In this document: piece by piece, positions 1,890 to 39,213 of the stretch
Numbering within the stretch: position 1 is the first letter of the stretch
Layout of the letters: each line of letters opens with the position of its first letter
IMG/VR virus record: IMGVR_UViG_3300032117_000033
Span: 1-55,952 of that record
Length of the DNA: 55,952 nucleotides
From: a virus
Strand: one strand, 5' to 3'
The notes under the pieces: model-generated
Told to the model about the DNA's origin: nothing
Databases searched by the model: none
The model's input: only the letters and a program-made list of their open reading frames with translations
Position numbers and translations under genes: made by a program

Positions 1890-2150
1890 ATGAAGCGTTT
1901 CAAAGTCCGTTATGGGTCCAACGTGAAGATCTACGATCTTCCCCAGGACACAACCATCGGGGACATTAAGTGCTCCGATATCATCCGGGCGGATCTCGGA
2001 TTCGGCGACAATGTCAACATCCTGTACAATGGTGTTGCGCTCCCGGACTCCGCGATCGCGCCGGAGTTCATCGAGCCGTTCGGCGGGGGCAGCCCCTTCA
2101 CCGGCAGCATTGTTGTGGAAACCGCCTGCAACAAGAAGGAACAGAACTAA
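1890..2150 (+). CDS. Beta-grasp ubiquitin-like protein (PRTRC protein C-like)
   Basis: The 86-residue protein has a ubiquitin-like layout: an N-terminal beta hairpin, a TTIGDIK turn into a helix (about residues 21-35), the strand NVNILYNGVALPD (41-53) and a final strand near SIVVETA (73-79). YNG..LPD and the neighbouring E2-like, ThiF and JAMM genes recall PRTRC protein C, a prokaryotic ubiquitin-like family. The C-terminus is CNKKEQN with no terminal diglycine, so it either needs trimming, is joined through another end, or is not conjugated. There is no clear Shine-Dalgarno. A small hairpin (CGGTA/TACCG) abuts the ATG. Confidence 0.65.
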   Translation: MKRFKVRYGSNVKIYDLPQDTTIGDIKCSDIIRADLGFGDNVNILYNGVALPDSAIAPEFIEPFGGGSPFTGSIVVETACNKKEQN

Positions 2151-2177
2151 TCCCGGCCGGGATTAGTTAGCTAATCC

Positions 2178-2219
2178 GTGGGGGTGGGGCGATTCGTCGC
2201 TCTGCCCCCACACTTTTTT
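2178..2219 (+). terminator. Terminator-like hairpin between Ubl and E2-like genes
   Basis: GTGGGGG (2178-2184) pairs with CCCCCAC (2205-2211). An inner hairpin, GCGA-TTCG-TCGC, sits in the loop. Six T residues follow at 2214-2219. It looks like an intrinsic terminator, yet it lies only 13 bp before the E2-like start and runs straight into its AAGGACAG box. It may therefore set the ratio of Ubl to downstream enzyme expression. A smaller hairpin (GGATTA/TAATCC) precedes it. Confidence 0.65.
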
Positions 2220-2231
2220 AAGGACAGAATT

Positions 2232-2939
2232 ATGGCAACAACACAGTATGTATTCCAGCCCGACGGCAAGCTGTTCCGCGAGGACATTACCCGCCGGGAG
2301 ATTGGAATCACCCCCCAGATCGCCCGGGCGATGAGTGGGGACGTGTCGGCCCGCGCGAACGCGATCGCCCAGCATGAACGCTGGGGCCAGTTCAACGTCC
2401 AGGTCGAATCCACCGGCGACTGCTGGTGGACCGCCCTGCTTCCCCGCCTCACCATCAAGTGCCCCTGGCGCATGGATGGCGGGAAGTGGACGCCAAACCT
2501 CAACAATCCCGAAGACCCGATCCAGGCGCTGGATTGGATTCCCCCGGACGACATGCGGCTGGTGTTTCTCATGCCGGTCAAATGGAGCCCGGGCAACTGC
2601 ATCGCCGAGAAGGTGGGCCACACCTACCTCTTTGCGTTCGATAACCAAGGAGCCACCTGGCGCCTCCCGCTGGGCAACTTATACGACGAGTGTCGTATCT
2701 GCCTCGGACAGGAGCGGTTCGCCGCTGCCAGCCACATGCAATGTGTGGCGGCCGCTCTGGAACAGTTCGCCAACAGCCAGTGGAACGCGGACCTGTGGCG
2801 CACCCAGGCACAGACTAAAGCCCTGTTCTCCTTCCTGCCCAAGGACAGCGGCTTCGATCAGATCCCGCCCGAGAGACACTGGACATCCTACTGCTCCAAG
2901 GTCGGCAACGCGATCAGCGAGAAGGTGGTGCTCTTATGA
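2232..2939 (+). CDS. E2-like protein resembling PRTRC system protein B
   Basis: This 235-residue protein starts at ATG 2232 behind AAGGACAG. The order FLMPVKW (about 112), TYLFAF (about 131), then LPLGNLYDECRICLGQ (about 145-160) fits the E2/UBC pattern, in which a proline/asparagine-containing loop leads to the catalytic cysteine (I/V-C-L). C157 is the likely catalytic residue, with C154 nearby. From family knowledge, PRTRC protein B belongs to a prokaryotic E2-like group. With the ThiF gene it would take an activated Ubl as a thioester. Its stop overlaps the next ATG. The E2 assignment is motif-based. Confidence 0.65.
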   Translation: MATTQYVFQPDGKLFREDITRREIGITPQIARAMSGDVSARANAIAQHERWGQFNVQVESTGDCWWTALLPRLTIKCPWRMDGGKWTPNLNNPEDPIQALDWIPPDDMRLVFLMPVKWSPGNCIAEKVGHTYLFAFDNQGATWRLPLGNLYDECRICLGQERFAAASHMQCVAAALEQFANSQWNADLWRTQAQTKALFSFLPKDSGFDQIPPERHWTSYCSKVGNAISEKVVLL

Positions 2940-3235
2940 CTATCTACGAGCTGCTCAATACCTGCCCGGTGCGTGTCTCCCTGGAGGAGAAGATGCTCCA
3001 TGCATTCAAGCAACTGTCGGAGCCAATCCACTGGGCGCTGCACACACGGGACGCGGTGGCGGTAGGGATGATCCACGATCCTAGCGTCGGCACCAAGCTG
3101 TTGACTACGGATCAGTACTCGCAGCTCATGCGCCTGCTCGACACGGCGGTCACCAAGCTGCAAATCGACATGGCCCTGTCGGAAGAACAGTTGGACCTGG
3201 CCAAGGCCATCATTGAAGAAAGCCGCCGACCATGA
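2936..3235 (+). CDS. Small helical protein between E2-like and E1-like genes
   Basis: The 99-residue protein begins MTIYELLNTCPVRVSLEEK and is predominantly helical, with an acidic C-terminus. It is joined by four-base ATGA overlaps to both neighbours, so it is translated in step with the E2-like and E1-like proteins. That suggests a stoichiometric partner or adaptor. No family was recognised. Confidence 0.7.
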   Translation: MTIYELLNTCPVRVSLEEKMLHAFKQLSEPIHWALHTRDAVAVGMIHDPSVGTKLLTTDQYSQLMRLLDTAVTKLQIDMALSEEQLDLAKAIIEESRRP

Positions 3236-3981
3236 GAGTCTTCATCATTGGCGGAGGCGGAGGCGGTAGCTGGCTCCTGCCGTCCATGTGCATGTTAGTG
3301 GGCCGCAAGCACCTGATCATCGTGGATCGGGACAAGCTGACCCAGAAGAACCTCAATCGCCAGCTCTTCACCGAAGAGGACGTTGGCAAGAACAAGGCGG
3401 TGGCCCTGGCAGAACGGTATCACTGCGAGGCGCTGCCGATCTGGTACACGCTCGGGTGCATCGACCTGACCCGGGACGATTGGCTCATCTCCTGCGCGGA
3501 CAATCATCCGTGCCGGTTGGCGATCCTTCGCTCGGTCGATCAGTTCAAGTGCCGCGCGATCATCGCGGCCAACGAGAAGACCAGCTCCGAGGCCTACTTC
3601 TATCGCCGCGACTGGCGGGACACCCCGCTGGATCCGCGCTGTTACTATCCGGACATCGAGACCGATGATACGGATGATCCTTCACGCCCCGAGACCTGCA
3701 CCGGGGAAGCTCAGGTCGCCACACCGCAACTGGTGTCGGCGAATGTCATGGCCATCTCATTGGCCCAATGGCTCTATGTCTTTTGGGGCATGAAGCGCCC
3801 GGGCATGGGGCTCAATGTCGATGAGAGCAACTTCCCGTATCATTACCGGGCCAACATGACCATGTTGGAAACCTTTAGGATCAAAGATGCCAACAAATCC
3901 TTTGAATTGGTGGGAGAACCTGGAACCGAGCCTGAACCCACACCTGATGGCGCATCCGCCGCAGGGGCCGTTTACGCTTGA
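3232..3981 (+). CDS. ThiF/E1-like Ubl-activating enzyme
   Basis: The 249-residue protein has an N-terminal Rossmann nucleotide-binding loop (FIIGGGGGGSW, residues 4-14), the acidic strand end IIVDRD (29-34), the NLNRQLF motif (40-46) that contacts ATP in ThiF, MoeB and E1 enzymes, GKNKA (52-56), and an aspartate at ISCADN (86-91). C-terminal cysteines such as ETCTGE are candidates for the thioester. In this family the enzyme adenylates the C-terminus of a ubiquitin-like protein. It overlaps its upstream neighbour by ATGA and the next gene by 95 bp. Confidence 0.85.
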   Translation: MRVFIIGGGGGGSWLLPSMCMLVGRKHLIIVDRDKLTQKNLNRQLFTEEDVGKNKAVALAERYHCEALPIWYTLGCIDLTRDDWLISCADNHPCRLAILRSVDQFKCRAIIAANEKTSSEAYFYRRDWRDTPLDPRCYYPDIETDDTDDPSRPETCTGEAQVATPQLVSANVMAISLAQWLYVFWGMKRPGMGLNVDESNFPYHYRANMTMLETFRIKDANKSFELVGEPGTEPEPTPDGASAAGAVYA

Positions 3982-4876
3982 TCCCTACACCCAGTTCATC
4001 AGTGAACGGGAGAGATTAAGACTGGAACAACAGATACAAAATATGAGCACACAAACAGCACCGATCGCGCCAGATCTGGAAGAAGCGATCAAGCAAGAGA
4101 CACTTCGGCAGTTAAATGCGGAAGAGGCCACTAAGGCCAAGCCGAAGGAAGACAAACCACTCAAATGCCCCAAGTGCGGGGCGTTTGCCGAGCGGGTCCT
4201 GGTCGCCAAAGACAATCGGCTTCCAGGACTTTTTTGCAATAAAGAGGGCTGCGGTTGGACCGCAACTCTCGATGTATTGCCGGTCCGCCTGCGGGAATGG
4301 ACCTACGTGATCCATCAGTCGATCCATGAACTGCTTCGACTGGCACCACTGAATCCGGTTGCCCGGACTCATGTTCACTCCAAGGTGGGGATTCCGATCC
4401 CCCCGGTATGCACCACGCTAGCCCAGATCCTGCAATGGATCGAGACCGTGGAGCTGAAGAAAGGGGTGTTGTCTAGTGACGAAATCCCTTTTAACCTACC
4501 GACGCTTCCTCGATGGGCGCCCACCAATGCCCTGTCGATCGAAGTGGGATACTCGTATCGAGAGTCTGGGAGAGCCAGTTACTCCTGCACACAGTATGGC
4601 TGCCGCAACTACGAACTAGGACGCGACGACATCGCCGAGATGGCGGAAGAGTGCGGCTCGTTATCCGAGTTGGAAACAGTGGTGAAACGGCGGTTCCGGG
4701 CTATGTGCGGTGAAAATCCTCCCAACACCGAGGCCTCTGATTACGACTACAGTGATGAAGAGGCCACGGACAGTGATGACCACGAGACAGAGATCCACGA
4801 GGAGACTCTGAGAACCAAGTTAGCCGAGTGGCTGCGCAACCATTTGCCAGCCGAGTATGACCGATTAAACACATAA
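3887..4876 (+). CDS. Zinc-ribbon protein of the Ubl cassette
   Basis: This 329-residue frame begins MPTNPLNWWENLEP inside the 3' end of the ThiF gene. The 95-bp overlap appears real because both frames read like protein; later starts at 3947 or 4043 are possible. It carries a zinc-binding CPKC...C....C set at about residues 94, 97, 117 and 122, a central region with proline- and tryptophan-rich loops, and a very acidic tail (about 285-305). Its position between E1-like and JAMM genes suggests a cassette role, perhaps substrate or partner recognition. No E3 or RING motif was seen, so this is only inference. Confidence 0.6.
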   Translation: MPTNPLNWWENLEPSLNPHLMAHPPQGPFTLDPYTQFISERERLRLEQQIQNMSTQTAPIAPDLEEAIKQETLRQLNAEEATKAKPKEDKPLKCPKCGAFAERVLVAKDNRLPGLFCNKEGCGWTATLDVLPVRLREWTYVIHQSIHELLRLAPLNPVARTHVHSKVGIPIPPVCTTLAQILQWIETVELKKGVLSSDEIPFNLPTLPRWAPTNALSIEVGYSYRESGRASYSCTQYGCRNYELGRDDIAEMAEECGSLSELETVVKRRFRAMCGENPPNTEASDYDYSDEEATDSDDHETEIHEETLRTKLAEWLRNHLPAEYDRLNT

Positions 4877-4894
4877 CAGAAAGGACAGTAATAC

Positions 4895-6091
4895 ATGCAG
4901 ACCGTTAAAATGAAGGACGACACAATCAACCAGGTCCTGGAGTTTCCAGGCATTGTGTCGGTCAAGTTAAAACACAAGATCAGCTCCACCGAGCTGGACT
5001 ACGACTACGCGGGGCCCAAGATCCCCTACGAAGAGTGGCACAAAGTTCTGTCATTCTTCCGGTGGACCTACCAGGAGGCTCATAGCGAGAGCCAGGTGAG
5101 GGGATTCATCGATCCAACCACCAACAAGATCCTGTTCTGGGCCTTCCCGCAGGAAGCCGGGACCGGGATGACCACCAAGGAACTGGATGGAGACGAGTTC
5201 AACCAGCAGAGGGCCGCGCTGCCCAATGCCAATGAACTGATCTACTTCTTCACCATTCACCATCACTGCTCGGCGGGAGCGTTCCAGTCGGGCGGCGACA
5301 GCAACAATGAGGAGCGGCCTGGTGGCCGCGCCCATGAGACCGGCCAGGACGGGCTCCACATCACCGTGGGGCTCATGGACAAGGCCCGGCACGACATGCA
5401 TGCCCGGCTCTACCTGAAGGGGGTCAAGATGCAGCCCAGGTTCTCGGACTTCTGGGACATCTCCGACAGCCTGAAGGTCATGCTGCCCAATACGCTGCAT
5501 GACAACGTGGCCTACTACCAGATGACCGAGAAGGTGGAGTTGGAGTTCCCCCAGAAGTGGAAGGACAACTACATCAAGGTGGAGCGCAAGGTCACGACCT
5601 ACGTCACGCCCGACTATTACGGAGGGGGGTATTCTGGCTACACCAGTGGCAAAAGCCTCACGGAAAGAATCGAGGCGTCGGCGGCGGAAGTGGTGGAGAC
5701 GCTGATGGACAATCCGAAGTTCGACGTGCCCATCGAGATCCTCCAGCAGGTGCTGGATTTCTTGCAGGAGTCTCCCATTATCGATGAGATCCTGGATGAG
5801 GCCATGAAGGAGCGCTACGACGCCATCGACATCCGGTCGCTGGTGAAGAACATGGAAACGATCGCCGACGACTGGGTGGAGATCGAGGCCGAACGGGCCC
5901 TGGCCATCGAGAAAGGGGAAAAGGTTGACATAGCTGTCAAACGGGGCAAACGTAAGAAGAATGGCAAAGGCACCATCGTGGCCGGTAACGAATCCGATCA
6001 ACCGAAGTCGGTGGCGGATCAGCAGGCGCAGCAGGCTCGAGAGCCTGACAAGGAATCAAGCCCCCTTGGAGCCAATGCGGCTTGGGATTAG
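4895..6091 (+). CDS. JAMM/MPN metalloprotease-like deconjugase
   Basis: The 398-residue protein carries a perfect JAMM signature: H122-x-H124, seven residues, S132-x-x-D135. Glutamates near residue 61-66 are candidates for the catalytic acid. The following strands (LHITVGLMDKA, MHARLYLKG) fit the MPN fold. In ubiquitin-like systems this zinc protease trims the Ubl or removes it from targets. The C-terminal 220 residues form a separate helical part ending in a lysine-rich and then disordered tail. The start has AAGGACAG six bases upstream. It closes the cassette before a strong hairpin. Confidence 0.75.
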   Translation: MQTVKMKDDTINQVLEFPGIVSVKLKHKISSTELDYDYAGPKIPYEEWHKVLSFFRWTYQEAHSESQVRGFIDPTTNKILFWAFPQEAGTGMTTKELDGDEFNQQRAALPNANELIYFFTIHHHCSAGAFQSGGDSNNEERPGGRAHETGQDGLHITVGLMDKARHDMHARLYLKGVKMQPRFSDFWDISDSLKVMLPNTLHDNVAYYQMTEKVELEFPQKWKDNYIKVERKVTTYVTPDYYGGGYSGYTSGKSLTERIEASAAEVVETLMDNPKFDVPIEILQQVLDFLQESPIIDEILDEAMKERYDAIDIRSLVKNMETIADDWVEIEAERALAIEKGEKVDIAVKRGKRKKNGKGTIVAGNESDQPKSVADQQAQQAREPDKESSPLGANAAWD

Positions 6092-7088: not shown

Positions 7089-7155
7089 AGGCCGGGATGG
7101 CCAGCTAAACACAACCTGCTAGGCGCACGATCTGTCCCGTGCAACATCCCGGCCT
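7089..7155 (+). promoter_or_regulatory. Three-way-junction leader before the annealing protein
   Basis: AGGCCGGGATG (7089-7099) pairs perfectly with CATCCCGGCCT (7145-7155), closing a 45-nt interior. Inside, CCAGC (7101-7105) can pair with GCTAGG (7118-7123, one bulge), and GCACG (7125-7129) pairs with CGTGC (7138-7142). The resulting three-way junction ends 19 bp before the ATG of the Rad52-like gene. It resembles a cis-regulatory RNA or riboswitch-like leader, or a protein-binding autoregulatory site. No known riboswitch class was recognised. Confidence 0.5.
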
Positions 7156-7174
7156 ATCCTTTGAAAGACAAACT

Positions 7175-8455
7175 ATGACTGAAGAAGAAGAAGCAGAACT
7201 GATTGAAGAACACGAGAACACGGCCATGCCGATCGCAGTTCGATCGCCAGAGCCGGAGAAGCCGCCCATGACAGCGGCTCAAGCGAAGGTCCAGGCCATT
7301 GCGGACCTTACTCACAGCGCCTACCAGAAGGCGTCCACGCTCCAGCTCACCAAGGAGGAGAGCGATGCGTTGCAGGCGGACTTCCCGGACGATGCGTTCT
7401 TCACGGGCGCGGCCGGGAAAGAGAACCTGATCTACATTGCCCACCCGCACTTGCGAGAGCGCCTGACCAAGGTGTTCGGAATGGGGGGATGGGCTTTGAT
7501 CACTCGGTCGCGGTGGGACGTTCCCTTCAAGACCGAGAAGGGTGTGGACGGGACCAACGTCTATGTCGAGGCCATGTTAGTGATCCGCGGTTGCTTCGTA
7601 GCCGAGGCAATCGGGGACATGGCTTACTACCCCAAGAACCAGCAGACCAACTACGGGGATGCGGTGGAGGGGGCGGAGAGCGCAGCCCTCAGGCGGTGCT
7701 GCAAGAAGTTCGGGATCGGACTCCAGGCCTGGAAGAAGGACTGGATCGAGGGATGGTGGCAGAGGCGCCGGGACCCCAAGCAGCCGATGGGCGCCACGCC
7801 AAGGGCCAAGCCCAAGGAAGCCGCACCAGCCCCCAAGCTGCCGACGGAGGCAACCAGGGCCTGGATGATCGCCCAGCTCAACATCGGTCCCGGACAACCG
7901 GCCAGGAAGCTGGCAACCGAGTACTTCGAGAAGATCTCGGCGCTGATCCCGGGGGAACAGGTGGAGGATCTGCCTCTCCAGTTCGTCCCGTTCAGCAAGC
8001 AGGAGCTGGAAGCCCTGGCATCCTGCCTGGCCAACTTTGAGGCTGGCGGGGATGCGGTGAGGGCCTTCGAGCCTCATTATGAGACAAAGGAGAGCAAGCC
8101 TGTCCAGAAACAGGACAAACCCATTGAGGTTCCTCGAGTGAAAGCCGAGGAATCCCAGTCGGGAGATGTGAACGAGTGGTTCATGGACATCGTGGTCCCG
8201 GTGCCTCGGAAGGGGCAGAAGCGGGACGAGTATATGAAGGATCCGGACACGATCCGATCCCTCTACGACGCGCGGCACGACGACGAAGACGCGCGTAAGC
8301 GTCTCTGGGGCTTCGTGAATCACTACGAGCCCAAGGGTTGGGAGAAGAAGGACGGCACCAAGATGCCGCCCGGTGACGCGGACATCAAGTTCCGGGAGGC
8401 GTTAGACGCCTTCAACGACTGGTTCGAGAAGGAGCACCCCGATGAGAGCTTGTAA
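7175..8455 (+). CDS. Rad52/Mgm101-family single-strand annealing protein
   Basis: This 426-residue protein has a core at about residues 60-185 typical of phage Rad52/22-like annealing proteins: IAHPHLRERLTKVFG, a WDVPF strand, VYVEAMLVIRG, and the signature GDAVEGAESAALRRCCKKFGIG. Such proteins anneal complementary single strands during phage recombination. A proline-rich linker and a variable acidic C-terminus follow. The start at 7175 was chosen because it lies after the structured leader; a frame from 7139 would run through it. An exonuclease partner lies at 8793. Confidence 0.85.
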   Translation: MTEEEEAELIEEHENTAMPIAVRSPEPEKPPMTAAQAKVQAIADLTHSAYQKASTLQLTKEESDALQADFPDDAFFTGAAGKENLIYIAHPHLRERLTKVFGMGGWALITRSRWDVPFKTEKGVDGTNVYVEAMLVIRGCFVAEAIGDMAYYPKNQQTNYGDAVEGAESAALRRCCKKFGIGLQAWKKDWIEGWWQRRRDPKQPMGATPRAKPKEAAPAPKLPTEATRAWMIAQLNIGPGQPARKLATEYFEKISALIPGEQVEDLPLQFVPFSKQELEALASCLANFEAGGDAVRAFEPHYETKESKPVQKQDKPIEVPRVKAEESQSGDVNEWFMDIVVPVPRKGQKRDEYMKDPDTIRSLYDARHDDEDARKRLWGFVNHYEPKGWEKKDGTKMPPGDADIKFREALDAFNDWFEKEHPDESL

Positions 8456-8792: not shown

Positions 8793-9569
8793 ATGACAGC
8801 AGTAAATGTAAGAAGATCGGAAAGTAGCCACTGGTACACCCAGTCTGGGGAACCGTGCTACGAGTTGAAGAAGAAGTCAGGGCCGGGAATGAAGCGGCCA
8901 ACACTGGCGGATGCCAGAGAGTTGGGTCTACTTCCAAGTGTCACAACTTTACTCAAGGTGCTGGCAAAACCAGCCCTACAGGACTGGTTAATCGCCCAGG
9001 CGGTAAGGGCGGTGATGGACACGCCCAGGCTCGAGGGAGAGACAAACGACCAGTTCGTGGAGAGGGTGCTGGTCACCGAGCGCATCCAGGACAGGGAGGC
9101 CGCTGGAGCGGCAGACTTGGGCAGCTCAATTCACGATGCCCTGGAAGAGGCAGTGGGTGGAAGGCCTTATGATGCCAAGTGGCGGCCGTATGTCTTCCCG
9201 GTGCTGGATGCAATTCAAGGGATGGGCAAGGTGGTCAAGTCAGAGTTCATCCTGGTTGGCAATGGCTACGCCGGAAGGTCGGACATCCTGATCGAGAACG
9301 AGAGGGAGCTGATTGTTGGGGACTTCAAAACTACCCGGTCGGTCCCACCGAAGGAGCCGTGGATCGAGGCAAGGCTACAGACCGCTGCCTATGCCAAGTG
9401 CCTGGGGAACGTGGCTGACAAGCATATCCTGACAGCGGTAATCTACATCAGCACCGTCAACATCGGTGAAGTGAAAGTGTTTATGAACGAGAACTGGCCG
9501 GAGATCTACGAGAAGGGATTCCTGCCGATTCTCAACTTTTGGAGATGGTCCAACTCATATTCCCCATGA
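8793..9569 (+). CDS. PD-(D/E)XK exonuclease of the recombination module
   Basis: The 258-residue protein matches the RecB/Cas4-like nuclease pattern: LPSVTTLLKVLAKP near the N-terminus, GSSIHDALEE with H114, E151, GYAGRSDILI with D164, IVGDFKTT with D177 and K179, and LQTAAYAKCLG with Q196 and Y200. With the annealing protein at 7175 it forms the usual exonuclease plus single-strand-annealing pair. AAGGACAG lies one base before the ATG. Its stop overlaps the start of a 29-residue membrane peptide. Confidence 0.85.
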   Translation: MTAVNVRRSESSHWYTQSGEPCYELKKKSGPGMKRPTLADARELGLLPSVTTLLKVLAKPALQDWLIAQAVRAVMDTPRLEGETNDQFVERVLVTERIQDREAAGAADLGSSIHDALEEAVGGRPYDAKWRPYVFPVLDAIQGMGKVVKSEFILVGNGYAGRSDILIENERELIVGDFKTTRSVPPKEPWIEARLQTAAYAKCLGNVADKHILTAVIYISTVNIGEVKVFMNENWPEIYEKGFLPILNFWRWSNSYSP

Positions 9570-25209: not shown

Positions 25210-27966
25210 GTGAACAGATCATGCTCGAACTTCCCACATTGCGGCCACAATCGCAATACCTTATCTTGCAGCATGGCCCGATCAACCAAGATGCCGCAGA
25301 TCCTCAAGTACAACTTGTCCATCAACCAGGCGGCGGATCCAGCCCGGATCGAGATGGAGATGATCCTGAGGGGCGGCCAGTGGAAGAAGCGGGACGGGAC
25401 CCTGGCCGGGGAGGGGATCAACTTCCACTTCAAAGAGCTGATGAAGCAACTTTGGCCTTGGATCGTTTGGCACCCGTGGGCAGACTTGCAGCTCGAATGT
25501 TACCTGAACTACCGGATCATCGGCCAGCTAGGGTGCGCTAGCTCGGGAAAAAGTTTTATTTCTGGGGCATGTGCCCTGGCGGATTATTACTGCTACCCGG
25601 ACTCGACCACGGTTCTGGTTTCGTCCACTACCAGGGAGAGCCTAGAAATGAGGGTATGGGGAGAAATCAAGAAATTGCACAAGTCCGCAAAGAAGCTTCA
25701 CGATTGGCTGCCAGGGTATTTGATCGAAGGAAAACAAAGAATCGTTACGGACGAACGCACACAGTCTGCGGAGGGTAGGGATTTCAGGAATGGAGTATTG
25801 GGGGTAGCTCTAAAACGCGGTCAGGCATTTCAAGGAATGGAGGAGCTGGTTGGGATTAAAAACAAAAGGCTTAGGTTCCTTGCTGATGAGTGTTTCTTAT
25901 CTGGCACTCTAGTGAACACCCCGACAGGACAGGTTCCAATAGAAAGGATAACCACAGGGGATCGAGTTTATTGCGCGTCAGGAATTGGGACCGTCTCGGC
26001 CACCTCTTGCCGTGTGGTTGAAAGCCTGGTAGAGATAATCACCAAGGATCTTCGGGTTTTTCGCTGCACCCCAAACCACCCATTCCTTACACAAAAAGGC
26101 TGGGAAAAGGCTTGCAATCTTAACCAATCGCATTATCTTCTAAGCCATGATGAAGCGATGCGAGTTCTGCGGCAGTCCGCTAAAACCAAAGCAGAGGCGC
26201 TTTTGCAGCCTATCCTGCAACGCGAAATGGATGCACTCCCAGCCACAGGAAGAAAGGCTGAGGAAATTATCGGCAGGTCTTTTAATGGCTCACAAGAGAA
26301 AGCCGGAGTGGGCGGCATCATTGTCCAAGAGCATGAAGTCGAACAATCCGATGAGAAGTGCGGAAATCAGAGCAAAGGTTTCAAATCGTCTGCGATTTAT
26401 TCACCACCATCCAAAGATTCGAGGCGGAAACGGAACCGGCCCAACCAGAGCCGAACAGTTCCTTCTCACGGCATTCCCAGAAGCCGTGTGGAATTATCCT
26501 ATTCCCACCGGCAAGCGGTCGGGGAGCGGATACCCGACCAACTACAAAGTGGATTTGGGATTCCCTGGTATAAATCTGGCCATCGAGGCGGACGGCCCAT
26601 GCCACACAAACTGGGACCAGCGCAAGGCCAAGGACATGAAGAAAGACTCACTTCTAAAGGAGCTTGGGTGGACTGTGTTAAGGATTACAAACCGCTTAAT
26701 CATGGAGCATCCGCTGGGGGTGCTATTGGATATACGGTCCACAATCTCCAAGTTGAAGGACATCCGAGCTACTGCGTCAATGGCATAACCGTACACAACT
26801 GCCAGTTCCTTCCTCGTTCATTTGTTGACGGTATAGCCAACATGAACAAGAACAAGGACTTCAAGTGCGTGGGGTCCGGAAATCCGAAAGATACGACAGA
26901 TGCCTTGGGAGTACTTTGTGAGCCAGCGGCCAATCGTGGAGGGTGGGATGGTGGTGTTGACCAGACGCCGAAAACCAAAACCTGGGAAATCCGATTTCCC
27001 CAAGGAATATGCATCCAGTTGCCGGGTAGTGATTCGCCCAATCTGGACGGACGACTCGGCATACCCCTCATTACCCAGGAGGCTATAGACGCCGACATCA
27101 AGTTCTACGGCAAGGACTCGATCCAGTATTCGATGATGGATGAGGGCCGCATGCCGCGCGGCCAGGGCGCCCGGAGGGTGATCACACGCCAGCTCTGCCT
27201 CAAGCACATGGCGATGGAGGAGCCGGTGTGGCTCAACTCCATCAAGACCAGGGTAGGGGCGCTCGACGCCGCTTACCGTGGGGTGGGCGGGGATCGGTGC
27301 GTGTTCATGGAGCTGGCCTACGGGCTCAACAGCGAAAGCAAGATGATCCTGGCCCTGATCGACACGATGGTGATCCCGATCAAGGACAGCCAGGTCGATC
27401 CGGCCGAGGACCAGATCGCCCTCCAGGTGAGGGACCAGTGCGAGCGGAGGGGGATCAGCCCGGAGTACTTCGGCTTTGACTCCACCGGCCGGGGAAGCCT
27501 CATGGCCGCCTTCGGCAGACTGTGGTCGCCCAACGTGATCCCGATCGAGTTTGGCGGGTCACCCTCCGAACGCGCGGTGGGCAATGGCCTGGATGTCACC
27601 TGCAAGGACTACTACTCTAAGCGGGTGTCCGAGCTGTGGTACACCGTCCGGCACATCATCGAGGGTGACCAGTTCCGGGGCATGACCGAGGACGTGATGA
27701 TGGAGGGGTGCATGCGGGAGTGGACCATCGTGGGTGCCAACAAGATCGAGATCGAAACCAAGGACAAGTGCAAGCTCAAGACCGGCCGGTCTCCCGACCT
27801 GTTCGACACCCTGGCCTCCGGGGTGGAAGTGGCCCGTCACCACGGGTTCAAGATCGATCGGATCATCAACCCGGCCTTCGCTGGAAACGACCAGCGGTGG
27901 AAGAAGGAACTACGGGAACGGGCCCGGGCTCTCTGGCAGAGCCACGAGCTGTCCTACCAAGCCTAA
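25210..27966 (+). CDS. terL: Terminase large subunit, intein-containing precursor
   Basis: This is the packaging motor. The ATPase has Walker A GCASSGKSF and Walker B LRFLADE. After intein removal the DE joins CQFLPRSF. The RNase H-like nuclease shows GALDAAYRGVGGDRC, FGFDSTGRGS and GRSPDLFDT. Removing the 303-residue intein from the 918-residue frame leaves about 615 residues, a normal size. The frame opens at GTG 25210 with GGGAG upstream; ATG 25273 (MARSTKMPQ) is also possible. It is the only plus-strand gene between two minus-strand structural blocks. No promoter was identified in the 18-bp gap. Confidence 0.9.
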   Translation: MNRSCSNFPHCGHNRNTLSCSMARSTKMPQILKYNLSINQAADPARIEMEMILRGGQWKKRDGTLAGEGINFHFKELMKQLWPWIVWHPWADLQLECYLNYRIIGQLGCASSGKSFISGACALADYYCYPDSTTVLVSSTTRESLEMRVWGEIKKLHKSAKKLHDWLPGYLIEGKQRIVTDERTQSAEGRDFRNGVLGVALKRGQAFQGMEELVGIKNKRLRFLADECFLSGTLVNTPTGQVPIERITTGDRVYCASGIGTVSATSCRVVESLVEIITKDLRVFRCTPNHPFLTQKGWEKACNLNQSHYLLSHDEAMRVLRQSAKTKAEALLQPILQREMDALPATGRKAEEIIGRSFNGSQEKAGVGGIIVQEHEVEQSDEKCGNQSKGFKSSAIYSPPSKDSRRKRNRPNQSRTVPSHGIPRSRVELSYSHRQAVGERIPDQLQSGFGIPWYKSGHRGGRPMPHKLGPAQGQGHEERLTSKGAWVDCVKDYKPLNHGASAGGAIGYTVHNLQVEGHPSYCVNGITVHNCQFLPRSFVDGIANMNKNKDFKCVGSGNPKDTTDALGVLCEPAANRGGWDGGVDQTPKTKTWEIRFPQGICIQLPGSDSPNLDGRLGIPLITQEAIDADIKFYGKDSIQYSMMDEGRMPRGQGARRVITRQLCLKHMAMEEPVWLNSIKTRVGALDAAYRGVGGDRCVFMELAYGLNSESKMILALIDTMVIPIKDSQVDPAEDQIALQVRDQCERRGISPEYFGFDSTGRGSLMAAFGRLWSPNVIPIEFGGSPSERAVGNGLDVTCKDYYSKRVSELWYTVRHIIEGDQFRGMTEDVMMEGCMREWTIVGANKIEIETKDKCKLKTGRSPDLFDTLASGVEVARHHGFKIDRIINPAFAGNDQRWKKELRERARALWQSHELSYQA
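25891..26799 (+). mobile_element. Intein in the Walker B motif of TerL
   Basis: The insert (303 residues) begins with Cys (CFLSGTLVNTPTG, block A) directly after LADE. It has block B with the T-x-x-H motif (CTPNHPFLT), and ends with YTVHNLQVEG and SYCVNGITVHN (blocks F and G). Cys follows as the first C-extein residue (26800-26802). All residues needed for class 1 splicing are present: C1, the block B His, the penultimate His, the terminal Asn and the +1 Cys. The middle of the insert is compositionally odd in this frame because it also encodes a nuclease in another frame. Confidence 0.9.
26147..26788 (+). CDS. Homing endonuclease (EDxHD/Vsr-like) overprinted on the intein
   Basis: The 213-residue protein lies wholly inside the intein in a different frame. 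It begins with a treble-clef-like zinc site (CEFCG...CSLSC), then a basic linker with NPMRS and GGNGTGPT. A nuclease core follows (YKVDLGFPGINLAIEADG, then H, then RKAKDMKKDSLLKELGW and TVLRITNR), matching the E-x-D-G-x-x-H layout of Vsr/EDxHD homing nucleases. Its 3' end overprints the intein's C-terminal splicing motifs. The frame starts right after block B, with no clear Shine-Dalgarno. It would cut unoccupied terL to spread the intein. Confidence 0.85.
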   Translation: MMKRCEFCGSPLKPKQRRFCSLSCNAKWMHSQPQEERLRKLSAGLLMAHKRKPEWAASLSKSMKSNNPMRSAEIRAKVSNRLRFIHHHPKIRGGNGTGPTRAEQFLLTAFPEAVWNYPIPTGKRSGSGYPTNYKVDLGFPGINLAIEADGPCHTNWDQRKAKDMKKDSLLKELGWTVLRITNRLIMEHPLGVLLDIRSTISKLKDIRATASMA

Positions 27967-33116: not shown

Positions 33117-34219
33117 GGAGAAATTGCGTATTTATTGGTCAAATAATTGTATAGATTAGTTCTAGCTGACGCTGATGAGAATACGCCCGCGCTTCCAACT
33201 CCCCCTAGTATATTGGAATAAGTAACAATTTCGGCAACATCAAATAAACAGCTCTGACTCAGATCGTATCTATTTCCAAAAGTGAATCCAGCGTCAGCCT
33301 GCGTGCCGATACTATTCGTTCCACTTGCTGAAACATTATTGCTCAGAATCCCAGAGCTTGCACCTGAAAACACCAAGTCCAGCACGAACCATTTTCCGGG
33401 CAGGGTATAGTAACCCGACGCTGATCCAGCATAGTGCCTATAAGCACCACTGACCGCCGAGCTGGTTTCAAAACCATTCCGATAAGAGGTGTTAGTCGAA
33501 TCGATGATCCAAGTATAAGCAGGTTCCGTTGCAACGGGTATAGAAATGACAGCCATGACTTCCTGGGGCTGGTTGGCAAAATACGCTGTATTCACCAAAG
33601 CTGAATTGGTGGTCGTCGAGAAATGAACGATGGCATGTCCGTTAAGCCAGTTATTGCTAACCATAGGAACTCCGGCGCTTCCGATCTTTCTAAGGTTAAA
33701 GCCACCCAGCCCAGAGTCAGGCCAATTAGTGATGTAGCCGGTAGCATTTGTGCCGGTGATGTTGTCTGCCACCCACCATGCTATGTTGGTTGCCCCCGAT
33801 AGGTTGGTTGGCGTAATGCTTAATGTCCAAAACGTACTATCTGTATTGGTAGAGTTCAGACCATTCGAGGCGTTACCGGAACGGCACCGGAAGTGATAGG
33901 TTGTCGCCTCGGACAACCCGGTAACATAATTAGATGGCGTTGTGGTATTGACATTACTCAGCACCGTTGATCCATAAGCGGTTGTCAGACCGTAATCGAC
34001 ACAGTTATTGGTGGTGGACGGCGAGGTAGTCCAAGATACTCCGGCGCTGGTTGAGCTTAAAGCCAGCACTTGCACCGATGTGATGGTCGGGCCGGAGCCT
34101 GCTGGCGGCACGCTGGTGAACATCGTACCATTAGTTATCACCTGCCCGGTATATTCTAGGTTGGTTTGAGAATATCCTAAGCCGCAAAGGCAGAACAAAA
34201 TGACGAAAATGAAGATCAT
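33113..34219 (-). CDS. Secreted-type FN3 plus LamG-like protein
   Basis: The 368-residue protein has a signal (MIFIFVILFCLCGLGYS), a fibronectin type III-like domain (about residues 45-130; GPTITSVQVLALSSTSAGVSW, ATTYHFRCRSGN) and a LamG/concanavalin-type sheet domain (NIAWWVADNITGTN, NGHAIVHFSTTTNSALVN, YYTLPGKWFVLDLVFSG). These modules bind sugars or surfaces. It is translationally coupled (ATGA) to the 1,665-residue spike, so the two probably form one surface apparatus. Confidence 0.7.
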   Translation of the reverse strand: MIFIFVILFCLCGLGYSQTNLEYTGQVITNGTMFTSVPPAGSGPTITSVQVLALSSTSAGVSWTTSPSTTNNCVDYGLTTAYGSTVLSNVNTTTPSNYVTGLSEATTYHFRCRSGNASNGLNSTNTDSTFWTLSITPTNLSGATNIAWWVADNITGTNATGYITNWPDSGLGGFNLRKIGSAGVPMVSNNWLNGHAIVHFSTTTNSALVNTAYFANQPQEVMAVISIPVATEPAYTWIIDSTNTSYRNGFETSSAVSGAYRHYAGSASGYYTLPGKWFVLDLVFSGASSGILSNNVSASGTNSIGTQADAGFTFGNRYDLSQSCLFDVAEIVTYSNILGGVGSAGVFSSASARTNLYNYLTNKYAISP

Positions 34220-37200
34220 GGATTGTTTGTGGACAAGACCAGCGAATAGGTGACTCCGTTATTCGTGAACTTCAAATAACCGCAAACAGTGCTGGTGAAG
34301 TTCCCCAGAGTCAGATTTGCCGCGCTGATTACGTTGGTAGCGTTTACGCTGGCCAGCGACGTTGCAGTATCGGCATTCCCGTGAAAACCGTTGCCGGCAT
34401 AAACATCCGGCGCACCCAGACTGACCGTATTCGTTGACTTGCCTACCACAGTCAATAACTGATTCGTGACATACCATTGAAAAGTTGAGGCTCCAGCATC
34501 GGTGATCTTGTTTTGCCCCACGTTATTCACAATGATGGTATTTACCGCCTCGCTTCCGACTGCTATCGAGCCGTTGTGTGCCGCCGTAGCTCCGTTGAAT
34601 ATGTTGTCAGTGAAAACAGTATTCGTTCCGTGGTTGCTGATTGCATCATAAGCCCAATCGCCATAGAAAACACTGTTTTGCACGATGGCACTAAGCGGAC
34701 TGCCGTATGAGGCCAGATAAAGTGCGTAGCCTCCTGTAGCCCCACCGTAGAACGAACACCGCTGAAACATCAAAGCCGTGCCACCGTATGCAGCCACTAA
34801 TATGCCGTTAGTAGGGGGAACAGAAAAGGAGCAACCTTCAAACAGCGTCCCATCATTAACACCGTTGATAAACGTTCCGTAACCGTATGTGCTCTGACCA
34901 TCACCCGTGCAGAAATCGCAATCTCTGAATACCGTATTGGTCGCTCCACCGTTGAACGTGATGGACACCGGCCCGTTCATAAAACGCACATCTTCAAACA
35001 GTTGATTGTTGAACGATCCCACATTGATGCTGTTGGTTTGCGGCGTGACTCCATAGATACGGATACCGCTGAAAGTTGTGTTCGGTCCATTGGCTTGGAT
35101 TGTCGAGTAGCCGCCAGCGATTCTCCACGAGTTAGTGATTATAATGTCGTTAAATCGAACGTCACTTGTCACAGCGGTAGCAGAGCCGGAATCGACCAAT
35201 GGTCCAGCCGAGTTTTCCAGATAGAAATGCGAGTAACTGACATTATGAGTGTAAGCGGTGGCAAAGCTATGGGTGTGCGCTGAAATGGTAAAACTGTAGG
35301 TGGTGCCATTTGTCGGGTACACATTCACAATTCTGCCATTCTGACAGAATACATTTACTGCCCCGTCCTCGGGTTCGATTGCTCGGTCGGAGTTTTCAAC
35401 ATCAATACCGTTTACAAACAACCCATTACCAGCAGTATCTTCAATCGCATTAGCCCAACCGTTTATGCCGCGCAAATTAGTGGCCAGGTAATTGAGCACC
35501 CAAACGTTAGTTGCTCCGTTAACCTTAATTCCAGACGCGCAGTTATCAATCCACAAATCTCTGATAACGTTGTTATTGCCAGCCAGAATAACCGGCTGAT
35601 CTGTGGTCAGGGGATTACTTGTAGCCGTTATTTTGCAAGATGATAAAACACAGTTACTTGACAGAACGAAGGATGAATTGGTTGTAATTGAAACGGTTAG
35701 AATGGTTCCAAAACCAGCACCTTTCAGAGTGATACCAACTGGAACACTCAACACGTTTGTTCCAAAACTATATGTGCCATCCGATAAATTCACAATGCCG
35801 GTTCCTATCGTTTGCATGGCATTGCTGATGGTCGTGGTATCATTTGCGCTTGGAGAAACCTGAACAACGCGGCCCGCCGTCACCGTCCCGCTCGCCGTGA
35901 TGTTGCCGTTGGTTTTATCAATGGTGACGGTGGTCGCGCCGTTATACCATTCCTTCTGCGAGCCTGCCGTCCACTCCGAGCTGGTCAGCGTGGCGGTGTT
36001 GGTGATGACGGTGTGGGTGCTGTCGTGCGTGAAGGTGCGGGTGCCGGAGGTGAAGGTGCCAGCCCCATTGGTCAACCCCACGCCGTTGATCGCCGAGCCG
36101 GAGGAACTGATGACGTTGGTGGTTTGAAAACCAATGCTGCCGTCGTGCTCTGCGTGGAACACCAAATTCGATCCGCCTGTGCTGGCGCTGTAGGTCCACA
36201 ATTCCGCCCAGCCACCGAGATAAGCCAGCGGATTGTTCCCCGCCAGAATCTTGGCCATTGGCCCCGGATAACCCGAGAACTCCAACGCGATGCCCACGTT
36301 CGCCGCGCTGTTATTGTTGTTCAGAATAAGCCCGATGTTCGTCGTGCTGTTCGCGTTGTTGGTAATCGAAAGGGTTGAAGTGTTCAACCAAGTTGCGCTG
36401 CCGTCCACATTCAAACCCGAAGCAGTCCCGGTCAATCCCGTTCCCGGCCCTCTGAAGTTAGAGGCCGTCACGGTCCCGCTGGCGCTCACGTTGCCGTTTG
36501 TCACCGATACCCCCGACGATGGAACGAACGTAAGCCCCGAACTCACAAACTGATTAGGCTCCAGGTCGATCTCGGAGCAAGTGCTGTCCACGGCCACCGA
36601 GTCTTTATACAGAAACGAGTTATCCTCAATCGTTGCCCCCACGCAGTTCGTCATCGCCAGCGCCATCTCCGAAGATGAACCGTTGCCTTCCCAGGTGTTC
36701 GCGGAAAAGAGAAGCTCATTCACTCCGTAAAGCACGCAGCCAACGCTGTTGTCCTCGCAATGGTTTTGCGAGATGGTCACACCCCCGTTGTTTGTAATCA
36801 TCAGCGCCATGCCGGTGTTTTCCTCCATGTCGTTGTGAATAATCTCAATCGTATTGCCATACCACGTTCCCAGCGAAGTGATGGAGACGCCATTCGTGCT
36901 CGACACCAAGATGTTGTTCCTGATTTGCAGGTTGTTGACGTTCGTGCAGGAAATACAGTTCTGGCACGCCCCGAACACGCAGGAGTCGATGTCTACGATC
37001 CAGGAGTTGGTGAGCAAAATGCCATACCCGTAATGGCTGATGTTGAGGTTCAGCAGCTTGTTCTTTTGAGACGATGGCGCAGCATTGACGATGGCTACCG
37101 TGTTGGCCGCCGCACCGCCGCCGCTGTAGAAGGCCAGGTTCCTGACTTCGTTCAACTGGCTCAGGGACAGCACAGGATTGGCCGTGCTGGAAACGAACCC

Positions 37201-39213
37201 GGTGACATAGGCACCGAGGCCGCCGTCGCCTTGCAAGCAGACTCCGATTGGCACGCTCAGGGTTCCCGAGACGGTGTAGAAACCAACCGGGAAGAACACC
37301 GAGGCTCCCGAGGCTCCGGTGGCTGCCGCGTTGATCGCAGCCTGAATCGCAGCAGTTGCGTCCGAGCCGTTAGGTTTCGCGCCATAGTCCAGTACGTTCA
37401 CCGCCGTGGCAACGCCGCCGCCGTTCCGGGTCAAAGCCCCGGCGAAGTTGTTACTGCCGGTGAAGGTCTGGTTGGCGGTGAGGGAGGCTCCGCTGCCAGT
37501 CGTAGCCGTCAACGTGTACTTCGTCGTCGCCCCGCTCACGTTGGTCACTATCGAAACACTGGCGTCACCGGCGGCGAGGACGGTGTTGTTCGTTTGGCCG
37601 CTGATGCCCGTCACGGTGCCAGTGAAGTTGTAGTTACCGTGCAGCGTCGTGACGTTGTTAGTCAGCAGCACTTCTCCAAAGTCCAAGTCGTAATTCCCGT
37701 ACCAAATTGAGTTGGTAAACCCAGGCTGAATCAGAACATGCTGTCCGGCAATGCCGGTAGTGAACTCGTTGAAGCGGTAGTAGTTAGTCCCCGCCGAGTA
37801 GTCCAGCATTCCGCCAAGAGCAAGCTGGCAGAAGTTGTTGTCGAACTGAACACCATTGCAGTTCTGGTAAACATAGACTGCCGCGCATCCGAGCACGTTG
37901 TTGTCCTTGAACAAGCATCCGGTTTGGCAGTTGGTGAAGTAGGCTCCCCAGCAGCAGTGGTTGAATGTGTTGGCCACCACGTTGTCGTGCGAGCGGCCAT
38001 CCAGCGAACGCGACAGGTAACCAAAGCTGCCCTCGTTTCCGCTGTTGGCCACGATCTCCTTGTTCGCCCCGTAGTTGTCGATCATCACCCAGCACTCCCA
38101 CATCTTATTACCAGTAATGACTCCATACTCCGCGCTGTCAGCTCCGTCCACTCCGAGCACGATGGCTTCGGTGCAGTTGGTGAGGTAGCAGGACCGGATG
38201 AAATAATGGTTATACTGATTGTTAATCCCCGGCAGGGAAGAGTAAACCGAGATGCCGTAGCCGCTGAAGTTGTAGACGTTCAGATCGGAAATGCGGGAGT
38301 TGTAAACGCAGTTGATCCGCATGGCGCTGCGGTTGCCGGGAGTCGGCAGGGCGCAGATCCCCGGACCGCCAGCGTAGATATTCGTGTCGTTGCCCTGGAA
38401 CGTTCCTGGGCCCTCCAGGCTGTTCCCCAGACCGTTCAACTCGAACAGGTATCCCGTGGCGTTGGTCTTGTATAGCAGGATGGAACCAGCCTCAAAGATC
38501 ATGTGCTGCGGGACGGTGGATGTTTGTGAACCAGTCAAGAACACCCCGGCCGGGAACAGCAGGTTGGTGCCAAGGGCCAATGCGTTCGAGATAACCAATG
38601 TGTTGTCCGTAACCCCATCGCCCACGGCTCCAAGGTCGGTGATCGAAACGGTGCCAACCAAGTGGGTGGCGGATATCGAACCGACAATATATGAAGCTGG
38701 CAAATTCCCATAAATAGTTCCACCTACATGGAGATCGTTGGTGATCGTCTCCGATTCGGCGTAGATGTTGATGAACTCGGAGTTGGTATCGGCCGGGTTG
38801 ATGCCAAGCACGGAGATCCCTCCAGCGAACACGTTGGGCGCAGTCCAATAATTGCTCGATACCAGAAGGTTCGTGCCCGATCCTCCCGACCCGGCCAGCG
38901 CCAGTTGCGCCTGCGTCGCCGCATCTAGCTTGTTGCTGTTGACCGAGCCCAGCGTCAGGTTGGCGCCGTTGAGCGCACTGGCCGACGTTAGCCACGGGGC
39001 TCCCTGGGCGGCCGTGGCGGTAGCGGCGTTGCCTGCGGTCGCCGCGCTGTTTGCGGTCGCGGCGTTGCCGGTGATGCTGCCGTGGATCGGCTGGGTGAAG
39101 GTGTTGACCCCGTAGAAGGTCTGGTTGGCGTTGGTGCTGGCCGGGTAAACCGGCGTGGCGGCAAACGAGCGCACGCCCAGCATCATCAGGATGAAGGCTA
39201 TCAAGATTCTCAT
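34216..39213 (-). CDS. Tail-spike-like protein with three pectate-lyase-type beta-helices
   Basis: The 1,665-residue protein begins with a signal-like segment (MRILIAFILMMLGVRSFAA). A tail-fibre-type stretch follows (FTQPIHGSITGNAATANSAA). Three pectate_lyase_3-like openings then appear: ITDLGAVGDGVTDNT (about 190), VNVLDYGAKPNGSDATAAIQ (about 610) and VQVSPSANDTTTISNAMQT (about 1,190). Each leads into a beta-helix. Such modules are polysaccharide depolymerases in phages. The tail-fibre-type collar suggests a virion part, while the signal peptide suggests export. It is the first gene of the coupled spike operon. Confidence 0.8.
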   Translation of the reverse strand: MRILIAFILMMLGVRSFAATPVYPASTNANQTFYGVNTFTQPIHGSITGNAATANSAATAGNAATATAAQGAPWLTSASALNGANLTLGSVNSNKLDAATQAQLALAGSGGSGTNLLVSSNYWTAPNVFAGGISVLGINPADTNSEFINIYAESETITNDLHVGGTIYGNLPASYIVGSISATHLVGTVSITDLGAVGDGVTDNTLVISNALALGTNLLFPAGVFLTGSQTSTVPQHMIFEAGSILLYKTNATGYLFELNGLGNSLEGPGTFQGNDTNIYAGGPGICALPTPGNRSAMRINCVYNSRISDLNVYNFSGYGISVYSSLPGINNQYNHYFIRSCYLTNCTEAIVLGVDGADSAEYGVITGNKMWECWVMIDNYGANKEIVANSGNEGSFGYLSRSLDGRSHDNVVANTFNHCCWGAYFTNCQTGCLFKDNNVLGCAAVYVYQNCNGVQFDNNFCQLALGGMLDYSAGTNYYRFNEFTTGIAGQHVLIQPGFTNSIWYGNYDLDFGEVLLTNNVTTLHGNYNFTGTVTGISGQTNNTVLAAGDASVSIVTNVSGATTKYTLTATTGSGASLTANQTFTGSNNFAGALTRNGGGVATAVNVLDYGAKPNGSDATAAIQAAINAAATGASGASVFFPVGFYTVSGTLSVPIGVCLQGDGGLGAYVTGFVSSTANPVLSLSQLNEVRNLAFYSGGGAAANTVAIVNAAPSSQKNKLLNLNISHYGYGILLTNSWIVDIDSCVFGACQNCISCTNVNNLQIRNNILVSSTNGVSITSLGTWYGNTIEIIHNDMEENTGMALMITNNGGVTISQNHCEDNSVGCVLYGVNELLFSANTWEGNGSSSEMALAMTNCVGATIEDNSFLYKDSVAVDSTCSEIDLEPNQFVSSGLTFVPSSGVSVTNGNVSASGTVTASNFRGPGTGLTGTASGLNVDGSATWLNTSTLSITNNANSTTNIGLILNNNNSAANVGIALEFSGYPGPMAKILAGNNPLAYLGGWAELWTYSASTGGSNLVFHAEHDGSIGFQTTNVISSSGSAINGVGLTNGAGTFTSGTRTFTHDSTHTVITNTATLTSSEWTAGSQKEWYNGATTVTIDKTNGNITASGTVTAGRVVQVSPSANDTTTISNAMQTIGTGIVNLSDGTYSFGTNVLSVPVGITLKGAGFGTILTVSITTNSSFVLSSNCVLSSCKITATSNPLTTDQPVILAGNNNVIRDLWIDNCASGIKVNGATNVWVLNYLATNLRGINGWANAIEDTAGNGLFVNGIDVENSDRAIEPEDGAVNVFCQNGRIVNVYPTNGTTYSFTISAHTHSFATAYTHNVSYSHFYLENSAGPLVDSGSATAVTSDVRFNDIIITNSWRIAGGYSTIQANGPNTTFSGIRIYGVTPQTNSINVGSFNNQLFEDVRFMNGPVSITFNGGATNTVFRDCDFCTGDGQSTYGYGTFINGVNDGTLFEGCSFSVPPTNGILVAAYGGTALMFQRCSFYGGATGGYALYLASYGSPLSAIVQNSVFYGDWAYDAISNHGTNTVFTDNIFNGATAAHNGSIAVGSEAVNTIIVNNVGQNKITDAGASTFQWYVTNQLLTVVGKSTNTVSLGAPDVYAGNGFHGNADTATSLASVNATNVISAANLTLGNFTSTVCGYLKFTNNGVTYSLVLSTNNP

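Follow-up and report, generated by a model that had tools for sequence, protein, structure and literature searches.

The IMG/VR virus record IMGVR_UViG_3300032117_000033, analysed here over its full 55,952 bases (the window), comes from a tailed phage, as its terminase large subunit and tail proteins indicate. At positions 1890-6091 it carries a cassette that we take to encode a pathway for attaching and removing a ubiquitin-like protein (Ubl). The cassette comprises the Ubl itself, an E2-like carrier, a partner of 99 amino acids (aa), an E1-like ThiF enzyme, a co-conserved protein starting at 3887 (the 3887 protein, or protein X) and a JAMM/JAB metalloprotease (Table 1). Judging from sequence, we put at about 0.78 the probability that the phage encodes a pathway of Ubl conjugation and deconjugation, one that makes up a clade of its own, related to the plasmid PRTRC cassettes but standing outside them. 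An earlier note, made from the letters of the window, had proposed such a pathway; all six open reading frames (ORFs) lie where it had placed them, and the gene set does look complete for activation, transfer and removal of a Ubl and is conserved as a unit in the phage lineage.

The proposed ThiF/E1-like enzyme at 3232 was borne out by a match to PF00899 (1.4e-18) and by intact adenylation motifs and cysteine. Over 13 aligned sequences, PRTRC and phage members included, the G-x-GG-x-G motif, D32, N40, Q44, K55, D90 and C156 are invariant, and R43 is nearly so. PADLOC, run on seven proteins of the cassette region, returned E1-domain matches only. Profile scans of the Ubl, E2-like, 99-aa, 3887 and JAMM proteins taken singly were uninformative, the E1 being the only protein identified in that way. 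Kinship emerged after relatives had been gathered by means of a degenerate DNA pattern built on the E1 motif, which yielded 25 viral loci; searches with a single E2-like or JAMM protein as query returned no relatives.

The JAMM protease likewise proved sound, its H-x-H-x7-S-x-x-D motif being exact in the window (it occurs in 27 of 20,000 composition shuffles) and, together with the upstream glutamate (E65), invariant in all aligned relatives. In profile-profile comparisons the JAMM profile matches PRTRC_A at 2.4e-8, and the E2 family profile matches PRTRC-B-type E2s at 5e-10. The P, N, C, G and L of the P-x-x-N...C-x-G motif of the E2-like protein are invariant in 15 phage relatives. The Pfam family Prok-E2_D (PF14460) is reached by one clade member, L032, with 33.3 bits against a cut-off of 25 (E 5e-8), the other members falling below; at E<=1, 13 of the 15 aligned relatives match, and the window protein alone gave no Prok-E2_D match in the profile scan. 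The histidine of the classical HPN motif is absent, the window reading PLGN and all 15 aligned sequences P-x-x-N. We take the L032 stretch PPLPNVYSNGQICMG to resemble the classical E2 HPN...C stretch minus this histidine. It is on the strength of profile homology that we call the protein a putative E2.

For the Ubl, an AlphaFold model built from five sequences (pLDDT 69) has the strand-strand-helix-strand-strand order of a beta-grasp. All 50 matches listed against the PDB are ubiquitin-fold proteins, including ubiquitin, SUMO, NEDD8, SAMP1 and Atg8, with moderate scores (best E 5e-3, TM about 0.55-0.59, probability mostly about 1); at that level, structure prediction agrees with the beta-grasp Ubl proposed at 1890. 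The tail carries a conserved N-[TSK]-K motif followed by one to three non-glycine residues. In phages it reads ETACNKKEQN (window), ETKANTKNN (L019), ETKANTKQN (L042), ETRANSKQS (L025) and ETRSNSKA (L032); bacterial tails read ETAANTKA, and one (L072) NTKAL. PRTRC_C examples end in GTKG (mostly), GDRG or KTNG, and the likeness of the NTKA tail to the GTKG end is suggestive.

The same Ubl-E2-E1 order, with homologous proteins, is found in four viral contigs (L019, L025, L042 and L032). Three of these (L019, L025 and L032) also have the JAMM gene, the L042 contig being cut short, and the 3887 protein has a homologue in L019 and L025 (it was not scored in L032). The terminase large subunits of L019, L025 and L042 share 43-58% identity with that of the window, and their E1s 45-48% with its E1, so the cassette has stayed with a phage lineage. 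A scan with the E1 alignment found nine genome contigs that carry this set to the extent that their length allows, mostly from Verrucomicrobia (Limisphaerales) metagenome-assembled genomes, with one labelled Geobacteraceae and one Hydrogenedentes. The order Ubl-E2-small-E1-X-JAMM is seen in bacterial contigs L071-L073 and L076, the others being truncated at one end. The cassette is accessory in the order, as the E1 was found in only 5 of the 196 genomes surveyed there. The E1 tree unites 14 sequences from phages and bacteria in a clade (100/97) to which neither the PRTRC E1s nor those of other phages belong. Within it, the nine from bacteria group together (99/96), and the four closest phages stand beside them as a weak sister group (83/76). 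For most pairs of bacterial copies, the ratio of nonsynonymous to synonymous substitution rates (dN/dS) lies at about 0.05-0.3 in each of five proteins (Ubl, E1, E2, X and JAMM), with E2 reaching 0.48, and this strong purifying selection indicates that they are working genes there. The window terminase was not found in the nine bacterial genomes with the cassette, so nothing shows these copies to belong to this phage, and Verrucomicrobiota is no more than a lead to its host. The window cassette is real and conserved, and probably a functional Ubl pathway.

In the pathway that we propose, the tail of the Ubl would be trimmed by the JAMM protease, or not at all. The ThiF-type E1 would adenylate the Ubl C-terminus and hold the Ubl as a thioester on Cys156, and the Prok-E2_D-like protein would accept it on Cys157, assisted by protein X and the 99-aa partner, and pass it to an amine on a target, from which the JAMM protease would take it off again. 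The target is inferred, and so, from the protein families concerned, are all of these catalytic steps. In the related cassettes examined, the place of the 99-aa partner between the E2 and E1 genes is taken by an ORF of 80-130 aa, with sequences that barely align, and only the C-terminal ~180 aa of the 3887 protein are common to the clade. Its description as a zinc-ribbon protein holds for the window phage, which has an N-terminal four-cysteine ribbon (CxxC-x17-CxxxxC); this ribbon is special to that phage, and it is the C-terminal domain that is conserved. The ribbon as a conserved E3-like component was considered and rejected because the relatives do not have it in common.

Several observations weigh against a conjugation pathway of this kind. 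Not one of the 11 Ubls of the clade ends in glycine, and profile comparison of the Ubl with PRTRC_C detects no homology, the fold and a similar-looking tail being what the two have in common. In CBASS, changing the C-terminal glycine of cGAS to Ser, Val, Arg or Trp abolishes conjugation and Ala is tolerated (PMC10097602). Since only Gly and Ala are tolerated there among the ends tested, the window Ubl (...NKKEQN) probably needs trimming or conjugates in an unusual way, under another rule, whereas the Ala-ending Ubls of the clade would be permitted. A histidine downstream of the E2 cysteine, absolutely conserved in operon type 6d of Iyer et al. 2006 and present as [ST]-H in five of six PRTRC_B examples, is replaced by Ala or Ser in the clade (N-[AS]-D-L or Q-S-D-L), a correspondence read by eye and from hhalign. 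The E2 model (best pLDDT 73, others 53-59) gave no UBC-fold match in the PDB, and one BFVD phage protein matches it at 2e-8; the missing match may reflect a weak model and PRTRC-B proteins without a solved relative. Of the E2-like protein claimed at 2232, the cysteine motif and the kinship to PRTRC-B therefore stand, and the UBC fold, whose absence from structure prediction the earlier note itself had named as counting against its proposal, is unconfirmed. No E3 was recognised among the genes, and an AAA unfoldase partner, suggested by bacterial contig L113, was dropped since the phages have no AAA protein.

Two other uses of these proteins were weighed. A sulfur-carrier pair (ThiS/ThiF-like) serving metabolism or tRNA thiolation, with the E2-like and JAMM proteins as accessories, would account for a beta-grasp Ubl beside an E1 that matches ThiF and MoeB models. 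However, the best bit scores of the E1, to ThiF or PRTRC ThiF models, all lie far below the cut-offs, the Ubl lacks a Gly-Gly tail, the E2 and JAMM genes are co-conserved, and no rhodanese, cysteine desulfurase, or thiamine or molybdenum gene was recognised among the neighbours examined; we regard such a role as very improbable. E1 chemistry might also operate apart from protein conjugation, through MccB-like adenylation of the non-glycine tail or with the Ubl as a non-covalent scaffold. MccB adenylates the C-terminal Asn of the microcin C7 peptide, and the Ubls of the window, L019 and L042 end in Asn, behind a conserved, non-glycine N-[TSK]-K motif; a complex could then include the 3887 protein and the small partner as subunits. 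Yet the catalytic-type cysteine of the E1 and the E2 motif imply a thioester relay, and the bacterial and L032 Ubls end in Ala (Ala-Leu in L072), a terminal residue that supports conjugation in CBASS, so that this alternative, too, seems improbable to us.

If conjugation is what the cassette does, any particular role can be assigned to it with clearly less than even odds. Most likely the target is a protein that works on DNA at an early stage: a phage or host replication or recombination protein, or a defence protein of the host or of a rival element. One reading, which we hold to be less likely than not, is reversible tagging by the phage lineage in early infection, with a non-glycine tag end (N-[TSK]-K-A/Q/N/E), which would control recombination or replication proteins or disable host or rival defences. 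An early DNA-associated or conflict role is favoured by the annealing genes of the phages and by the neighbours of the bacterial copies. The window cassette is followed downstream by genes for an Mgm101/Rad52-type annealing protein and a PD-(D/E)XK nuclease, and L019 and L025 have RecT on the same side, so that the cassette adjoins a single-strand annealing protein in three phages (one Mgm101-type, two RecT); the window annealing protein has no detectable relative in the L019 and L025 genomes. Because the cassette sits in a recombination module in these three phages, an early role in DNA processing or counter-defence appears more likely than modification of virion proteins. Among bacterial copies, a PD-(D/E)XK nuclease lies upstream of the Ubl in L074, and an integrase and DUF932 lie near the cassette in L072.

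The same chemistry could serve counter-defence or the exclusion of rivals, with the cassette, as a tagging system found in bacterial defence islands too, marking and disabling host or competing-phage proteins, or its JAMM protease disturbing a host Ubl defence, which we consider rather unlikely. In its favour, L073/L115 lies in a defence island with Wadjet (JetD, JetC, JetA), Shango-like SngA/B/C and a UG5-nitrilase reverse transcriptase, L071 lies near RadC and AbiEi/AbiEii, the distribution is patchy (5 of the 196 genomes), and an antiphage function is known for the Ubl systems Bil and CBASS Cap2/Cap3 (PMC10097602; PMC11354881). The neighbours in L113, in contrast, are a primase, a ligase, a nuclease-like ORF and an AAA ATPase rather than defence genes. 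The E1 tree places the phage and the bacterial copies as sisters, which establishes neither that the phage captured the cassette nor in which direction. If the preferred reading, a conjugation pathway, is true, bacterial viruses also use protein tagging, which opens the question of what gets tagged, and this question is directly testable because related sets lie in cultured phages. In prokaryotes, Ubl conjugation has mostly been associated with sulfur chemistry, archaeal SAMPs and antiphage defence. The conserved non-glycine tail, parallel to the GTKG end of PRTRC_C, would moreover probe the glycine dependence of E1/E2 chemistry.

Plasmid PRTRC cassettes, with their Prok-E2_D-type E2, are the nearest system known. 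The comparison with them made in the earlier note is upheld as kinship, through the profile-profile matches to proteins B and A, but not as membership by the NCBI models. Against TIGR03736 (PRTRC_ThiF) the E1 scores 37.4 bits, where the cut-off is 144.75, and the PRTRC_A/B/C models gave no match at E<=1 to the window Ubl, E2 and JAMM proteins. As the E1 score, these models, the glycine tail and the E2 histidine all fail, we did not file the cassette as PRTRC. Among the proteins scanned there were no ParB-family or PRTRC protein E genes, although no search was aimed at them. PRTRC is probably operon type 6d of Iyer et al. 2006, and the window has the gene set of that type (Ubl, JAB, E1, E2 and an extra, putatively alpha-helical protein) in one operon. 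Alike are the separate Ubl, E2 (Prok-E2_D, without the HPN histidine), JAMM and ThiF-type E1 in one operon, the extra alpha-helical or other protein and the mobile-element context. The window clade differs in its separate E1 clade, its Ubl tail (N-[TSK]-K-A/x rather than GTKG), its gene order, its clade-specific protein X and its carriage by a phage lineage and Verrucomicrobia-type genomes. The sliding-clamp gene dnaN lies within ~6 kb of the Ubl cassette in L005, L008, L009, L016 and L017, of which four are plasmid loci of PRTRC type and one is a phage scaffold; this link is absent from the phage clade and was not used.

Other Ubl systems resemble the cassette less closely. Bil (BilABCD) also has Ubl, E1, E2 and JAMM in one operon, but BilA has two Ubl domains, BilD an inactive and an active adenylation domain, and BilB a CEHH motif (PMC11354881), whereas the window has a single Ubl domain (86 aa), a 249-aa E1 with one ThiF domain and no CEHH-type E2 motif. 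Type II CBASS Cap2/Cap3 has E1/E2/JAMM chemistry in common with the cassette and accepts Ala or Gly as the reacting C-terminus; in the window, by contrast, E1 and E2 are encoded by two ORFs instead of the single E1-E2 fusion of Cap2, a genuine Ubl is present and no CD-NTase was seen. The lambdoid tail-assembly proteins gpI/gpK (TAPI Ubl plus JAB/NlpC) are likewise a phage-encoded Ubl and JAMM, but lack E1 and E2 and belong to tail assembly, unlike the window cassette in its recombination module. The available parts of Iyer et al. 2006 (PMC1779556) describe Ubl and JAB in lambdoid tail modules and no phage E1/E2 set, and interpret JAMM and E2 beside E1 as a standalone pathway. A literature search, which did not include subscription papers or preprints, found no description of a phage-borne PRTRC-like Ubl pathway.

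Carriage by this phage is no isolated case, since related E2-JAMM-E1 sets occur in cultured phages and many viral contigs. Phages KLEB27-3, ME3, Arash and Vibrio D69 and many IMG/VR contigs have E2, JAMM and E1 side by side, but they are other, larger phages with another E1 branch and, where seen, a PRTRC_C-like Ubl. KLEB27-3 carries PRTRC_A, ThiF, E2 and a tandem Ubl, and a faecal phage scaffold also has a related set. The tandem-repeat Ubls of Bacillus phage KLEB27-3 (L003 42-428, KAGVKG ends) and of Bacillus velezensis plasmid pAD3 (L011 838-1599, KAGTKG ends) are polyubiquitin-like precursors beside E2, JAMM and E1. On an Alicyclobacillus plasmid (L016 4922-5863), a Ubl-like segment ending KKGATRG is seemingly fused to the JAMM N-terminus. 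The JAMM gene is apparently split near HxH by a ~1-2 kb insert in Acinetobacter phage ME3 (L004 1733-4843), L030 (2578-5020) and L040 (3409-5851); these inserts, of which the one in ME3 holds a tRNA-Met and small ORFs, resemble introns or some other interruption of the active-site region. In Salmonella phage Arash (L006 1519-4539), both the E2-like and the E1-like protein carry the annotation 'structural protein', which might stem from virion proteomics; our literature search found no paper on this annotation.

Within the window cassette, the start/stop overlaps said to link most of the genes hold for the E2/99-aa and 99-aa/E1 junctions, which are ATGA overlaps; there is no other tight ATGA overlap, and short gaps set the Ubl and JAMM genes apart from their neighbours. 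The start of the 3887 gene sits 95 bp inside the E1 gene, and this annotated start is possibly too early, the true one lying later. As the G+C content of the cassette (0.579) equals that of the remainder of the record (0.581), there is no sign of recent import. The ORF upstream of the Ubl has no homologue in the related cassettes, and its membership of the system is doubtful. The ribosome-binding sequence AAGGACAG(T) precedes the start codons at 1326, 2232, 4895 and 6145, and not those of the Ubl, 99-aa and E1 genes.

Table 1. Genes of the window cassette and its surroundings; catalytic residues are predicted
Feature	Position	Strand	Remark
ORF upstream of Ubl, 174 aa	1326..1850	+	ribosome-binding sequence AAGGACAG
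Ubiquitin-like modifier, 86 aa, beta-grasp	1890..2150	+	tail ...SIVVETACNKKEQN, non-glycine
E2-like carrier, 235 aa, Prok-E2_D / PRTRC-B related	2232..2939	+	predicted catalytic Cys157 in PLGNLYDECRICLG
Partner, 99 aa	2936..3235	+	slot between E2 and E1
E1-like ThiF enzyme, 249 aa, minimal adenylation domain	3232..3981	+	predicted catalytic Cys156
Co-conserved 3887 protein (protein X), 329 aa	3887..4876	+	C-terminal ~180 aa kept in clade
JAMM/JAB metalloprotease, 398 aa, PRTRC_A related	4895..6091	+	E65 and HHHCSAGAFQSGGD (H-x-H-x7-S-x-x-D)
Mgm101/Rad52-type single-strand annealing protein, neighbour	7139..8455	+	
PD-(D/E)XK nuclease, neighbour	8793..9569	+	

Elsewhere in the window, the terminase large subunit (25210-27966) has an apparent intein, with Hint-domain matches from residue 228 over ~300 aa, which is absent from the L019, L025 and L042 terminases. 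A 1665-aa protein encoded at 34216-39213 on the minus strand has a pectate-lyase-like domain and is probably a tail spike depolymerase.

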